Shown: positions 3,730 to 40,909 of the stretch, in pieces
Layout of the letters: each line of letters opens with the position of its first letter
How positions within the stretch are numbered: the first letter of the stretch is position 1
Source of the DNA: Arthrobacter sp. NicSoilC5
GTDB lineage: Bacteria > Actinomycetota > Actinomycetes > Actinomycetales > Micrococcaceae
Direction: 5' to 3'
Length of the DNA: 64,000 nt
NCBI RefSeq assembly: GCF_019977395.1
Contig: NZ_AP024660.1
Span: 1,674,001 to 1,738,000 of the forward strand
Made by a program: the position numbers and the translations under genes
Notes under the pieces: model-generated
What the model saw: only the letters and a program-made list of their open reading frames with translations
The model's database searches: none
What the model was told of the DNA's origin: nothing

Positions 3730-4446
3730 CTAAACACCTGCCTTCGGAGCCAGGAGGGCCTTCACCAACGCTGCCGGAGCGATCTCGTCCAGCGGCAGGC
3801 CGCGGCGTGCTGCCACTGCTGCCGGCTCTTCGAGGCGCTTCAGGGCATCAACGGTCGCGTGAACGATGTTGATGGCGTTGGAGGAACCGAGCGACTTGGA
3901 GAGGATGTCGTGGATGCCCACGCACTCCAGTACTGCACGGACCGGACCACCGGCGATAACACCGGTACCGGCGGAAGCCGGACGCAGCATTACGACGCCG
4001 GCAGCGGCTTCACCCTGAACGCGGTGCGGGATGGTGTTGCCAACGCGGGGAACGCGGAAGAAGGACTTCTTGGCCTCTTCAACGCCCTTGGCGATAGCAG
4101 CGGGAACTTCCTTGGCCTTGCCGTAGCCCACGCCGACCATGCCGTTACCGTCACCAACGACGACCAGTGCGGTGAAGCTGAAGCGACGACCACCCTTGAC
4201 GACCTTGGAGACGCGGTTGATGGTGACAACGCGCTCTACGAACTGGTTCTTTTCGGCTTCACGGCCACCGTCGCGGCCGCCACGGCCACCGCGGTCGCCG
4301 CGGCCCTGGCCACGGTCGCCACGCTCGCCGCGACGGGCGCCACCACGGCGGTCCTCGGCAGCGGGGGCAGTGGTCTCAGCAGCTGCGGCTTCGGGCGCCT
4401 TCTGATCTGCAGACACAGTGTCCTTTTCCTTGTTTGCTTCGGTCAC
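3730..4446 (-). CDS. rpsE: 30S ribosomal protein S5 with Arg/Gly-rich N-terminus
   Basis: S5 lies at the mRNA entry channel and affects decoding accuracy. The core shows [20 protein letters not shown] and the loop [20 protein letters not shown]. The protein is 238 residues, longer than most S5 (about 165-200), because of an N-terminal extension: Ala/Glu-rich residues 1-31, then an Arg/Gly tract at 33-62 with repeated RGG and DRG units. It starts with GTG, overlapping the rplR stop by 4 bp. The extension is seen in the sequence; its role is unknown. Confidence 0.97.
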
Positions 4447-4826
4447 AGTGACAGCCCACCTTCGCGTGCACCGTCAGCGACGGCGGCGATCCGGCCGTGG
4501 TACTTGTTACCACCACGGTCGAACACAACAGCCTCGACGCCGGCAGCCTTGGCACGTTCGGCAACGAGCTCGCCAACGCGCTTGGCCTTGGCAGTCTTGT
4601 CACCGTCGAATGCACGAAGGTCAGCTTCCAGAGTGGACGCGCTTGCTACGGTCTGGCCAATGGTGTCATCGACAACCTGGACAAATACGTGGCGTGCGGA
4701 GCGGTTGACCACCAGGCGGGGGCGGACAGCCGTACCGGAAATGCGCTTGCGGATACGAAGCTGGCGGCGGCTGCGACCAGCAGCCTTGCTCTTGTTCGTA
4801 CGCTTCTTGTTAATGGAGATGGCCAT
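4443..4826 (-). CDS. rplR: 50S ribosomal protein L18
   Basis: L18 binds 5S rRNA and joins it to the large subunit. The 127-residue protein has the basic N-terminus, [18 protein letters not shown], and the C-terminal [20 protein letters not shown] signature. It sits 2 bp after rplF and overlaps rpsE by 4 bp in the spc operon. Confidence 0.97.
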
Positions 4827-4828
4827 GG

Positions 4829-5365
4829 TTACTTACCAGCCTTTCCGACCTTGCGGCGGATAACTTCGCCGGCGTAACGGATGCCCTTGCCCTTGTACGG
4901 GTCAGGCTTCCGCAGCTTGCGAATGTTGGCAGCGACCTCGCCGACCTGCTGCTTGTTGATACCTGAGACAGAGAGCTTGGTCGGTCCCTCTACTGCAAAG
5001 GTGATGCCGGCCGGAGCCGAAACGTTGACCGGGTGGCTGTAGCCCAGAGCGAACTCAAGGTCAGATCCCTTGGCCTGAACGCGGTAACCGGTACCGACGA
5101 TTTCAAGCTTCTTCTCGTAGCCTGCGGTGACGCCCTGGATCATGTTGGCGATCAGGGTGCGGGTCAGGCCGTGGAGCGAACGGGAGGCGCGCTCGTCGTT
5201 CGGGCGGCTGACGGTCAGGGTGTTCTCGTCCAGGGCAACCTCGATGGGGCTGGCCACAGTGTGGGTCAGCTCCCCCTTGGAACCCTTGACGCTGACGACA
5301 GAGCCGTCAACCTTGACCTCAACGCCGGCAGGAACGGTGATGGGGAGACGTCCAATACGTGACAT
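4829..5365 (-). CDS. rplF: 50S ribosomal protein L6
   Basis: L6 lies near the factor-binding site of the large subunit. The 178 residues match the family length; the start [12 protein letters not shown] and the C-terminal signature [20 protein letters not shown] are diagnostic. It is a tightly packed spc-operon gene, 18 bp after rpsH. Confidence 0.97.
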
Positions 5366-7481: not shown

Positions 7482-7542
7482 GACGGACGACGGCGTGATG
7501 CAGGGCAGCCTTTCCGCCCGCCCGGGGTGCCGCTCCCCCGCC
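7482..7542. repeat. 61-bp direct repeat, copy A
   Basis: This GC-rich block begins GACGGACGACGGCGTGATGC and ends CGCTCCCCCGCC. It matches 7733-7793 at 59 of 61 positions. The first core of the 32-bp-phased array starts 5 bp beyond its end, so the two copies bracket the array. Confidence 0.9.
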
Positions 7543-7547
7543 AGCAC

Positions 7548-7725
7548 AACGCCCCATCACTTCCTGCAGCAAAACAACCAACGCCCGATCACCTCCAGCA
7601 GCAAAACAACCAACGCCCGATCACCTCGAGGCCTACCGGCAACGGGAAGTGATGGGGCGTCGCCGAAAAGGCGGTAATAAGTGATGGGGCGTCGCCGAAA
7701 AGGCGGTGATAAGTGATGGGGCGTT
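7548..7725. repeat. 32-bp-phased inverted repeat array, locus 1
   Basis: Three left-facing cores, AACGCCCCATCAC at 7548 and AACGCCCGATCAC at 7580 and 7612, are followed by three right-facing cores GTGATGGGGCGT at 7649, 7681 and 7713. Each half has an exact 32-bp period. The 7567-7595 segment (29 bp) recurs identically at 7599-7627. The 32-bp unit at 7647-7678 recurs at 7679-7710 with one change and begins again at 7711. The period is not a multiple of three and no frame has credible codon use, so it is not coding. The same family occurs at 40096-40220. Confidence 0.9.
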
Positions 7726-7732
7726 TGTGAAG

Positions 7733-7793
7733 GACGGACGACGGCGTGACGCAGGGCAGCCTTTCGGCCCGCCCGGGGTGCCGCTCCCCCGCC
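7733..7793. repeat. 61-bp direct repeat, copy B
   Basis: This is the second copy of the block at 7482-7542, with two substitutions. It starts 7 bases after the last GTGATGGGGCGTT core of the array and lies between the array and the rpsQ terminator. Confidence 0.9.
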
Positions 7794-38879: not shown

Positions 38880-40097
38880 ATGTCTTCCGCCCGCGTTTCC
38901 CAACGCATTTCCGCTATTGCCGAATCCGCAACCCTGGCCGTTGACGCCAAGGCCAAGGCGCTGAAGGCAGCTGGCCGGCCGGTTATTGGTTTCGGTGCGG
39001 GCGAACCCGATTTCCCCACCCCGGACTACATCGTCCAGGCGGCCATCGAGGCTGCCGGCCAGCCCAGGTTCCACCGCTACTCCCCTGCCGGCGGCCTGCC
39101 CGAGCTGAAGAAGGCAATTGCGGAGAAGACGCTGCGCGACTCCGGCTACACCGTGGATCCCTCACAGGTGCTGGTCACCAACGGCGGCAAGCAGGCCGTC
39201 TACAACACCTTCGCCACCCTGGTGGATCCGGGCGACGAGGTCATTGTGCCTGCCCCGTTCTGGACCACCTACCCGGAGGCCATCCGGCTGGCAGGCGGCG
39301 TGCCCGTGGAGGTCTTCGCCGGGCCAGAACAGGACTACCTGGTGACTGTTGAACAGCTCGAAGCGGCCGTGACGGACCGGACCAAGATCCTGCTGTTCGT
39401 CTCGCCGTCGAACCCCACGGGTGCTGTGTACTCCCCCGAGCAGGTGGCGGAGATCGGCAAGTGGGCCGCGGCCAAGGGCCTGTGGGTGGTCACGGACGAA
39501 ATCTATGAGCACCTGACCTACGACGGCGTCCCGTTCACGTCCATCGCCACCGCTGCCCCGGAACTGGGCGACAAGGTGGTCATCCTCAACGGCGTTGCCA
39601 AGACGTACGCCATGACCGGCTGGCGGGTGGGCTGGATGATCGGCCCGGCAGACGTCATCAAGGCGGCCACCAACCTCCAGTCGCACGCCACGTCCAACGT
39701 GTCCAACATCATGCAGATCGCCGCCCTCGCCGCCGTGTCCGGCCCGCTGACCGCCGTCGATGAGATGAAGGTGGCGTTCGACCGCCGCCGCAAGGCCATC
39801 GTCGCGGGGCTGAATGCGATTGACGGCGTGGAATGCCCGACGCCGAAGGGCGCCTTTTACGTATACGCCGACGTCCGTGCGCTGCTGGGGAAGGAATTCC
39901 CCACCGCGTCCGGCACCGCCACGCCGCAGACCTCCGCGGAGCTGGCCTCGCTGATCCTCGACGAGGTTGAGGTGGCAGTGGTTCCGGGCGAGGCGTTCGG
40001 CCCCTCCGGCTTCCTGCGCCTCTCCTACGCCCTGGGTGACGACGACCTCGCCACAGGCGTCCAGCGCCTGCAGGACTTCCTGGGCAAGGCCCAGTAA
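38880..40097 (+). CDS. Aspartate-type aminotransferase (class I, Ib)
   Basis: A 405-residue PLP enzyme that transfers amino groups, most likely between aspartate and 2-oxoglutarate. Motifs are [14 protein letters not shown], the substrate-side [33 protein letters not shown], the PLP lysine in [17 protein letters not shown], and the carboxylate-binding Arg in [10 protein letters not shown]. Its TAA stop overlaps the first core of the repeat array at 40096. It follows a 278-bp gap from tRNA-Trp in which I see no gene. Confidence 0.93.
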
Positions 40098-40220
40098 CGC
40101 CCCATCACCTTTCGCCGGAAAAACCAGAACGCCCCATCACCAAGTGATGGGGCGTTCTGGTTTAAGGCCCGAAAGGTGATGGGGCGTTGGAGATATAGGG
40201 GCGGGAGGTGATGGGGCGTT
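40096..40220. repeat. 32-bp-phased inverted repeat array, locus 2
   Basis: Left-facing AACGCCCCATCAC cores start at 40096 and 40128, and right-facing GTGATGGGGCGTT cores start at 40144, 40176 and 40208, with 32-bp spacing within each half. The array runs from the TAA of the aminotransferase to the TAA of the convergent response regulator; both stop codons share bases with a core. The 45-bp arms 40096-40140 and 40144-40188 are inverted copies except for one block of six positions. Confidence 0.92.
40121..40163. terminator. Perfect 20-bp hairpin between convergent genes
   Basis: The centre of the array is a perfect 20-bp stem (40121-40140 with 40144-40163) with loop CAA. One side ends in TTT and the other starts AAA. 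It lies between two convergent genes and could terminate both transcripts, although the U-runs are short. Confidence 0.65.
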
Positions 40221-40909
40221 TAGAGGAGGCGGCGCTCCGCGGCCCACTTGGTGAGTTCGTGGCGGCTGGAGAGCTGGAGCTTCCGCAGCACCGCCGAGAC
40301 ATGGGTCTCCACGGTCTTGATGCTGATGAAGAGTTCCTTGGCCACTTCCTTGTAGCTGTAGCCCCGGGCGATAAGCCGCATGACCTCAAGCTCACGGGCG
40401 GAGAGCTTGTCCAGTTCATCATCGGCGATGTCCGCGGGGGCGGTGCCGAAGGCGTCCAGGACAAAACCGGCCAGGCGGGGCGAGAAGACTGCGTCGCCGC
40501 CGGCCACCCGGAACACGGCATCGGTAATTTCGGCGCCGGAGATGGTCTTGGTGACATAGCCGCGGGCGCCGGCACGGATGACGGCGACCACGTCCTCCGC
40601 GGCGTCGGACACACTCAGGGCCAGGAACCGGGTGCTGGACAGGAGCGCGGCGGAGCCGGCGATGACTTCCCGGCCGCCGCCGCCCAGTCCGCCGGGGAGG
40701 TGGACATCCAGGAGGACGACGTCGGGCCGCTGCTGGGCAATCACGGCGATGGCCTGCTCCACGGTGGCAGCCTCCCCCACCACCTGGATGCTGGGGTCGA
40801 GGTCCGCTTTCAGGCCGGACCGGAAAATGGCGTGGTCGTCCACGATGACCACCCGGGCCGAGTTGGCCGGCCGGGCACTTCCGGCACCTGTTCCCTGGGT
40901 TGTGTTCAT
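40220..40909 (-). CDS. NarL/LuxR-family response regulator (LiaR-like)
   Basis: A 229-residue regulator. The receiver domain has VIVDDHAIFRSGLKADLD and the phospho-acceptor Asp in PDVVLLDVHLPGG; the C-terminus has the LuxR helix-turn-helix LSARELEVMRLIARGYSYKE with ISIKTVETHVSAVLRKLQLS. It overlaps the histidine kinase stop by 4 bp. The expected target is the promoter region at 42244-42368 and other envelope-stress genes; this is inference from LiaRS-like systems. Confidence 0.93.
   Translation of the reverse strand: MNTTQGTGAGSARPANSARVVIVDDHAIFRSGLKADLDPSIQVVGEAATVEQAIAVIAQQRPDVVLLDVHLPGGLGGGGREVIAGSAALLSSTRFLALSVSDAAEDVVAVIRAGARGYVTKTISGAEITDAVFRVAGGDAVFSPRLAGFVLDAFGTAPADIADDELDKLSARELEVMRLIARGYSYKEVAKELFISIKTVETHVSAVLRKLQLSSRHELTKWAAERRLL

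Follow-up and report, generated by a model that had tools for sequence, protein, structure and literature searches.

What would place five copies of one short sequence, in two opposed and evenly spaced sets, in the exact gap between two convergent genes? The window analyzed here, a 64,000-nucleotide stretch of the Arthrobacter sp. NicSoilC5 contig NZ_AP024660.1, contains such an arrangement at positions 40096-40220, where the core GTGATGGGGCGTT occurs twice on the minus strand and three times on the plus strand. The left arm consists of an outer core (core 1, 40096-40108) and an inner core (core 2, 40128-40140), both minus; the right arm consists of an inner core (core 3, 40144-40156), core 4 (40176-40188), and an outer core (core 5, 40208-40220), all plus, with a spacing of exactly 32 bp inside each half. 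The left gene (38880-40097, plus strand), modeled from its ORF and codon usage, encodes what we take from its sequence to be a pyridoxal-phosphate aminotransferase-like protein, and the right gene (40220-40909, minus strand), called as an ORF, presumably encodes a LuxR/NarL-type response regulator-like protein. Core 1 overlaps the TAA of the left gene, which ends at 40097, by 2 bases, and core 5 has 1 base in common with the TAA of the right gene, which ends at 40220. The five opposed cores, their exact period in each half, and the fit from stop codon to stop codon with shared bases were all claimed in the original prediction and were confirmed, as were the 45-bp inverted arms around a perfect hairpin: the arms (40096-40140 and 40144-40188) are 87% complementary (39/45), and the central hairpin (40121-40163, assigned to neither strand), read from the sequence, has a perfect 20-bp stem (40121-40140 paired with 40144-40163) and a 3-nt loop. 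Two of these features, the precise fit between the stop codons and the extensive complementarity of the arms, are local to this array and not typical of the family to which it belongs.

Allowing up to two mismatches, the window holds 12 matches to the core, against a mean of 2.3 and a maximum of 6 in shuffled sequence. The whole genome (4,691,366 bases) has 46 exact copies and 76 with at most one mismatch, and the reversed pattern gave 0 and 1, respectively. Most copies belong to 32-bp-phased arrays elsewhere in the genome, a single arm of which can hold as many as seven cores facing the same way; one exact copy, at 747767, is solitary and lies in apparent coding sequence. A second phased array of the same family is found in the window at 7548-7725 (three minus cores and then three plus cores, with no strand assigned to the whole), flanked by genes that we take to be ribosomal protein genes. 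On either side of this second array is a 61-nt direct repeat, 97% identical (window positions 7482-7542 and 7733-7793), which could represent a local duplication or a long target duplication. Whole arrays are duplicated locally at L145 (1855-2153, in the order --++--+) and L194 (from 1669, --++--++++), which suggests recombination between copies.

The search was extended to the genus, represented by one genome per species. A TGGG-like tandem pattern, named for core bases 5-8 of the window's version, was found in 18 of 206 genomes. A generalized pattern, two copies of GTGANNNNGCRT 32 bp apart, was present in 178 of 204 (control, one hit in total), and the other 26 had no phased pair. The window repeats are one member of a large genus-wide chromosomal family, and, beyond what had been predicted, the window core is a genome-specific dialect of that family. 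In a sample of the taxonomic family, 36 of 295 genomes, spread over 4 of 32 genera, had the generalized pattern (control, one hit): 19 of 24 genomes of the own genus, 15 of 22 of genus g38, and two further genera with a single match apiece. An order-level sample gave 10 of 347 genomes, one of them outside the family with a single match; the control hit 4 genomes, so this lone match is not above chance. A further dialect, GTGATGCGGCGT, was seen in genome G242, which belongs to g38, another genus of the family.

The core does not fall at random positions without phasing, an outcome that the original prediction had named as speaking against it: when the core, without any spacing constraint, was used to retrieve loci, 58 of the 62 neighbors that face the same way (14 to 60 bp apart) lie at 32 bp and the remaining four at 31, 33, 44, and 50 bp, and 29 of 33 are still at 32 bp after similar spacers are removed. 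At the window locus in the 30 closest genomes, which were fetched by gene, the figure is 49 of 50 distinct neighbors. All loci together gave 298 of 329 at 32 bp, with 18 at 31 and 10 at 33 bp; dereplication left 133, of which 111 are at 32, 11 at 31, 8 at 33, and 3 at 41-44 bp. These counts favor 32 because part of the set comes from loci fetched by a 30-34-bp or an exactly 32-bp pattern. Six loci were left out of the spacing, T-tract, and location counts, which took 84 arrays to 78: L101, L111, L129, L142, and L149, which come from other organisms or an unplaced bin and were taken as chance matches, and L103, where the match lies inside a called gene. Eight viral loci were also left out of the spacing and A/T-tract counts and the T-tract count.

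The family core is GTGA-NNNN-GCRT-Y, in which positions 5-8 vary between species. Cores of the TGGG dialect are preceded by about seven further biased bases, GC-N-R-R-A-R, and the consensus of the TGGG-type unit runs from GTGATGGSGCGTY through about five free bases to an A/T-tract at positions 19-22, followed by GC at 26-27 (92% and 93%, respectively) and by A at position 31 in 94% of units. A or T is present at positions 19-22 in 79, 86, 79, and 67% of units, against 8 to 46% at the other positions from 14 to 27; most units carry the tract between cores, and it was seen in every one of the four core types with at least six units. Positions 20-21 may read AA or TT on either strand (n = 111: AA, 40; TT, 18; AT/TA, 19), a strand symmetry that fits DNA shape better than RNA. 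A hairpin inside the unit was rejected: no covariation was detected within 83 dereplicated units, and 63 single units folded no better than their single-base shuffles (mean z of -0.49 and -0.16). Arms are arranged minus and then plus in 52 of 53 opposed neighbor pairs.

Placement was examined for 78 arrays, at loci found with TGGG-type cores and with orthologues counted separately; genes were called with an in-house codon-usage caller in place of an annotation pipeline, so contexts and distances are approximate. The family lies at gene 3' ends. None of the 78 arrays overlaps a called gene (the excluded L103 and L129 did), and where both neighbors were called (64 arrays), the flanking genes are convergent in 26 cases, tandem in 33, and divergent in 5. 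The median distance from the array is 10 bp for flanking 3' ends (93 ends) and 127 bp for flanking 5' ends; of the 49 5' ends, 6 come within 40 bp and none within 20 bp. The nearest flanking 3' end has a median distance of 8 bp and is within 15 bp in 38 of 59 arrays. One-armed arrays exist, and orientation at times breaks the rule that relates it to the sense of the neighboring gene.

The centers of the arrays are also constrained. Gaps between the two cores of 76 inverted pairs, from the 13 genomes listed of 121 searched and with orthologous places counted separately, were 3-6, 11-14, or 21-24, never between; the reversed control hit 5 of the 121, and the histogram, used for gaps up to 24, mixes inner and +32 pairs. 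The best period is 9.5 bp (8.75 to 10 nearly equal), with a vector length of 0.82, where 500 random sets reached at most 0.41; as it is 9.5 and not 10.5 bp, the helical argument is only approximate. The exact 32-bp period over unrelated spacers, the strand-symmetric A/T-tract, and the clustered center gaps together point to a protein that would bind DNA on one face. The original prediction had proposed just such cooperative binding, and the fixed 32-bp period, the AAA-or-TTT tract, and the clustered gaps speak for it; the 9.5-bp period does not, and the protein is putative.

Our preferred reading, to which we would give a probability of roughly 0.45, is that the array is a 3'-end DNA element in which phased sites for a putative sequence-specific DNA-binding protein, with a hairpin at the center, form a two-way boundary. 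Each 32-bp unit would comprise a sequence-specific core site and a linker with an A/T-tract, and units would repeat in two arms facing outward from a central dyad, the innermost pair forming a short hairpin. A putative DNA-binding protein would occupy the units cooperatively on one helix face, and the bound units could make up a nucleoprotein block at which transcription arriving from either side is terminated or insulated. Should the specificity of the protein drift, the sites would follow genome-wide and dialects would result. What the data show is the family itself, its phasing, its dialects, their switching at a given locus, and the placement at 3' ends; the protein, its cooperativity, and the role in termination or insulation are what we infer from the patterns. 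Several observations count against this reading: the exceptions to the sense rule, the 5 of 64 divergent arrays, the 9.5-bp period, the 26 of 204 genomes with no phased pair, and three results given below, namely, the real central hairpin, the 19 of 97 genomes with intermediate dialect composition, and the arrays of mixed dialect.

The hairpin bears on a different explanation, in which the array would act at the RNA level as a bidirectional terminator or a 3'-stabilizing hairpin, the central pair (at times the whole arms) folding in the transcript and the outer cores being duplicates. The center of the family is a true hairpin: in 26 two-sided arrays, from which near-copies had been removed, pairing for about 4 nt beyond the central core pair exceeded that of shuffled partners (0.538 versus 0.390; 0/1,000), and this extension of the innermost stem is also predicted by the RNA explanation. 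Arrays at gene 3' ends would suit it as well, and both strands of the window array fold strongly (40090-40226; z of -10.9 and -11.3). At the window locus, moreover, 8 of 30 genomes have one long palindrome and no array, and changes in the arms of such palindromes still pair, as judged by eye. Set against this, a terminator scan called no T-run terminator at the window array, and T was not significantly enriched over A in the tract after innermost cores (15:20 against 12:36; P = 0.10), a count that also leaves out the single-palindrome loci found later. Outer spacers are not complementary overall; pairing across the whole 19-nt spacers of the 26 two-sided arrays was not above shuffles (216/1,000), and a long fold-back hairpin as the general form was rejected. 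One-armed arrays occur, and a hairpin would seem to need neither a genome-wide 13-mer nor an exact 32-bp phase. The window array itself may have a 3'-end RNA role, as had been suggested; for the family we regard the RNA explanation as rather unlikely.

Evidence of another kind came from the spelling of the core. Each genome tends to favor its own spelling at core bases 5-8, and some mix two. Of the 97 genomes in which 20 or more phased pairs were counted, 34 had no GAGA/TAGA pair and 44 had them as more than half of the total; under even mixing, the expected number of genomes with zero would be 0.0028. The other 19 of the 97 had some GAGA/TAGA pairs, not above half, so that one dialect per genome is a tendency and no rule, and dialects are at times mixed within single arrays, as at the window locus. 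A spelling that changes in step across a genome argues that something in trans must read the repeats.

DNA of the right gene matches 205 of the 206 genomes of the genus, paralogues possibly among them, and the window locus was compared in the 30 closest of these. An array or a palindrome is kept in all 30: 21 gaps hold arrays of the TGGG, GCGG, or GAGA/TAGA dialect, 1 is mixed, and 8 hold the single palindrome, with labels assigned by eye and some arrays including a core of another dialect. Some of the single-palindrome forms have, by eye, an apparent decayed outer core beside the stop codon. On a tree of the two flanking genes for 29 labeled genomes, the four states require at least 12 changes, where the least possible is 3; this quick tree has strong support on 9 of its 27 inner branches. 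The labels are nevertheless more clustered than when shuffled (shuffle mean of 15.9 changes, with a value as low in 0 of 200). Inner spacers (18 left and 18 right, hand-copied from the 22 arrays at the locus) have mean identities of 61% (left) and 63% (right) between arrays of different dialects, compared with 43 and 42% for spacers from other loci (95th percentile, 63%). This homology across dialects indicates that the arrays look inherited in place while the cores change. Dialects also differ at what we take to be the fhs/ino1 locus, which is TGGG in L033, L204, and L205 and GAGA in L184, and at a second place, which is GAGA in L207 and GCGA/GCGG in L208. The placement of the arrays, together with the replacement of an array by a palindrome at the same locus, points to a 3'-end role, e.g., two-way termination or insulation.

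We tentatively extend the boundary reading to the genus: a putative genus-wide DNA-binding factor may respecify the middle bases of GTGA-NNNN-GCRT between species, with the sites of each genome following, and assembly of the factor on face-phased arrays, each arm with between 2 and about 11 sites, may create two-sided boundaries at gene 3' ends. If so, bacteria would have a boundary system whose dialects evolve, and the coevolution of sites and factor could be followed from one locus to the next. Related species, which at one place carry homologous spacers and different dialects, offer a natural experiment in such coevolution, and a protein behind the arrays could represent a new class of bacterial DNA-organizing or termination factor with matched site variants in many genomes.

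Might the repeats instead be selfish elements, resembling REPs or REPINs and spread by a transposase? According to the available part of PMC3733652, REPs are dispersed, extragenic elements found mostly 3' of genes and often in inverted pairs, with some families specific to a species, and their units are themselves palindromes; CGTC-tagged REPs have an 8-9-bp stem, a 4-5-nt loop, a CGTC end, and a CCA tail, have no dedicated transposase, and are rarely clustered. The same text, which in that part contains none of the strings arthrobacter, actinobacteri, and micrococc, gives GTAG as a REP head tetranucleotide. Relative to REPs and BIMEs as there described, the window family is alike in being short, dispersed, extragenic, 3' of genes, present in many copies, often in inverted pairs, and different between species, and like the CGTC-tagged REPs it is without a dedicated transposase. 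It differs from them in that the unit is no palindrome (no covariation; z of -0.49 and -0.16), the arms are direct, polar tandems with a 32-bp period, and the bases of the core are exchanged at a given locus with the spacers kept. Compared with that partial description of the CGTC-tagged REPs, its core may end in CGTC or in CGTT, and its units do not fold alone.

REPINs consist of an inverted pair of short sequences, a layout resembled by the palindromes that occur as single pairs in some array-poor genomes, whereas the window family has arms of up to 11 same-facing cores. The RAYT domain PF01797 was found in 1 of 101 genomes and was absent from G000, versus 5 of 14 positives in a control set; with the domain not found in the other 100, a RAYT-driven REP was rejected. 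Some REPs carry the head tag GGAG, and the commonest bases at positions 29-32 of 177 TGGG-type units, preceding TGGG cores, spell GGAG (71, 55, 94, and 57%), which would favor a REP-like origin; other dialects differ at these pre-core bases, however, and no palindrome follows. The original prediction had named a match to REP/BIME as evidence against it: the extragenic, multicopy placement at 3' ends is indeed that of REPs, but the unit does not fold by itself, and the RAYT domain is confined to 1 of the 101 genomes. Judged by the available part of PMC3733652, REP elements are the nearest known kind, alike in location and inverted layout, yet we do not file the family as REP, and we think a transposase-spread selfish repeat improbable. 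If no protein is involved, the arrays would constitute a REP-like family without a transposase, whose exact phase would still call for an explanation.

A dispersed family of palindromes, TGCTCYATCACTTWTGGTCCC...GGGACCAWAAGTGATRGAGCA, is found at gene 3' ends in some array-poor genomes (loci L222-L241). Copies of GTGATRGAGCA number 26 in G192, 23 in G133, 22 in G007, 25 in G006, and 14 in G051 (reversed controls, 3, 2, 3, 2, and 4), and 16, 14, 12, 14, and 6 of these copies, respectively, are arranged as inverted pairs 45-47 bp apart. Other array-poor genomes have few copies (7 in G103, 5 in G113, 11 in G202, and 6 in G161; controls, 1, 4, 1, and 2), so the sister family is not in all of them. 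The 21 pairs studied, picked as pairs from 20 stretches, are long intergenic palindromes, none between divergent genes (one pair has no left neighbor), and changes in their arms still pair with their partners, by eye.

Dialects also recall DNA-uptake signals. DUS and USS often form inverted pairs at terminators, and they are dispersed in very high numbers without a 32-bp phase. Related species of the Neisseriaceae and Pasteurellaceae carry related, differing versions of one short sequence, as do the genomes studied here, and dialects of the Neisseriaceae uptake sequence are described in the available part of PMC3630211. The window family has few copies (46 exact cores in 4.69 Mb) in a strict 32-bp tandem phase, both unlike uptake signals as we understand them, and an uptake signal with species dialects in inverted pairs at 3' ends seems to us scarcely credible. 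Rho-dependent termination sites, a reading in which the strand transcribed from the adjoining gene is often rich in C and poor in G, would account for the left arms of TGGG-dialect arrays, which by eye form repeats rich in C when followed in the direction of the upstream gene. The GCGG and CCGG dialects place G in that same strand, however, and we know of no need in Rho sites for a conserved 13-mer or a 32-bp phase; this explanation is very unlikely. Among eukaryotes, the TTF-I sites of rDNA are repeated protein sites downstream of genes that stop polymerase, at one locus and without a dyad. The likeness is that of repeated sites just 3' of genes.

Rfam returned five matches at E values up to 1, all below gathering scores. 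With the window locus as query, a phage and plasmid search returned five weak phage matches (E = 0.7), each covering at most 19% of the query, and no plasmid match; the two-core pattern was matched by eight viral contigs, in none of which the cores form a phased array of the window kind. A viral or plasmid origin thus found no support in the phage, plasmid, and viral-contig searches. One viral contig, L221, has at 1097 three GTGATGGGGCGT cores of the window's TGGG dialect, 16 bp apart and without the 32-bp unit, which may be a chance occurrence. In the open PMC literature, the titles among the matches to six core 12-mers concern other organisms, the family is undescribed in the titles and abstract starts among the matches listed for Arthrobacter repeats and REPIN/RAYT, and a query on convergent-gene terminators had no match. 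The RepRanger paper (PMC12306157) has a table row for A. livingstonensis, and the part of it available holds no account of the window family.

At the fhs/ino1 locus the two arms are separated by a gene. In L033 a DUF559 nuclease-like gene (4235-5194), presumably PD-(D/E)XK-like, lies between the left and right arms, and the array at this locus is also split in L184, L204, and L205 (genomes G020, G072, and G135). An ORF in L184 looks homologous to the DUF559 gene; the gene caller overlooked the DUF559 gene in both L033 and L184, and its output for L204 and L205 has no gene at this place. That a trans-acting factor is encoded between the arms was considered and rejected: other split arrays (L206-L208) hold different genes, so the DUF559 gene looks like a passenger. 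In L204, eleven same-facing cores (2126-2450), several of them at 31 rather than 32 bp, begin straight after the stop codon of the fhs-like gene.
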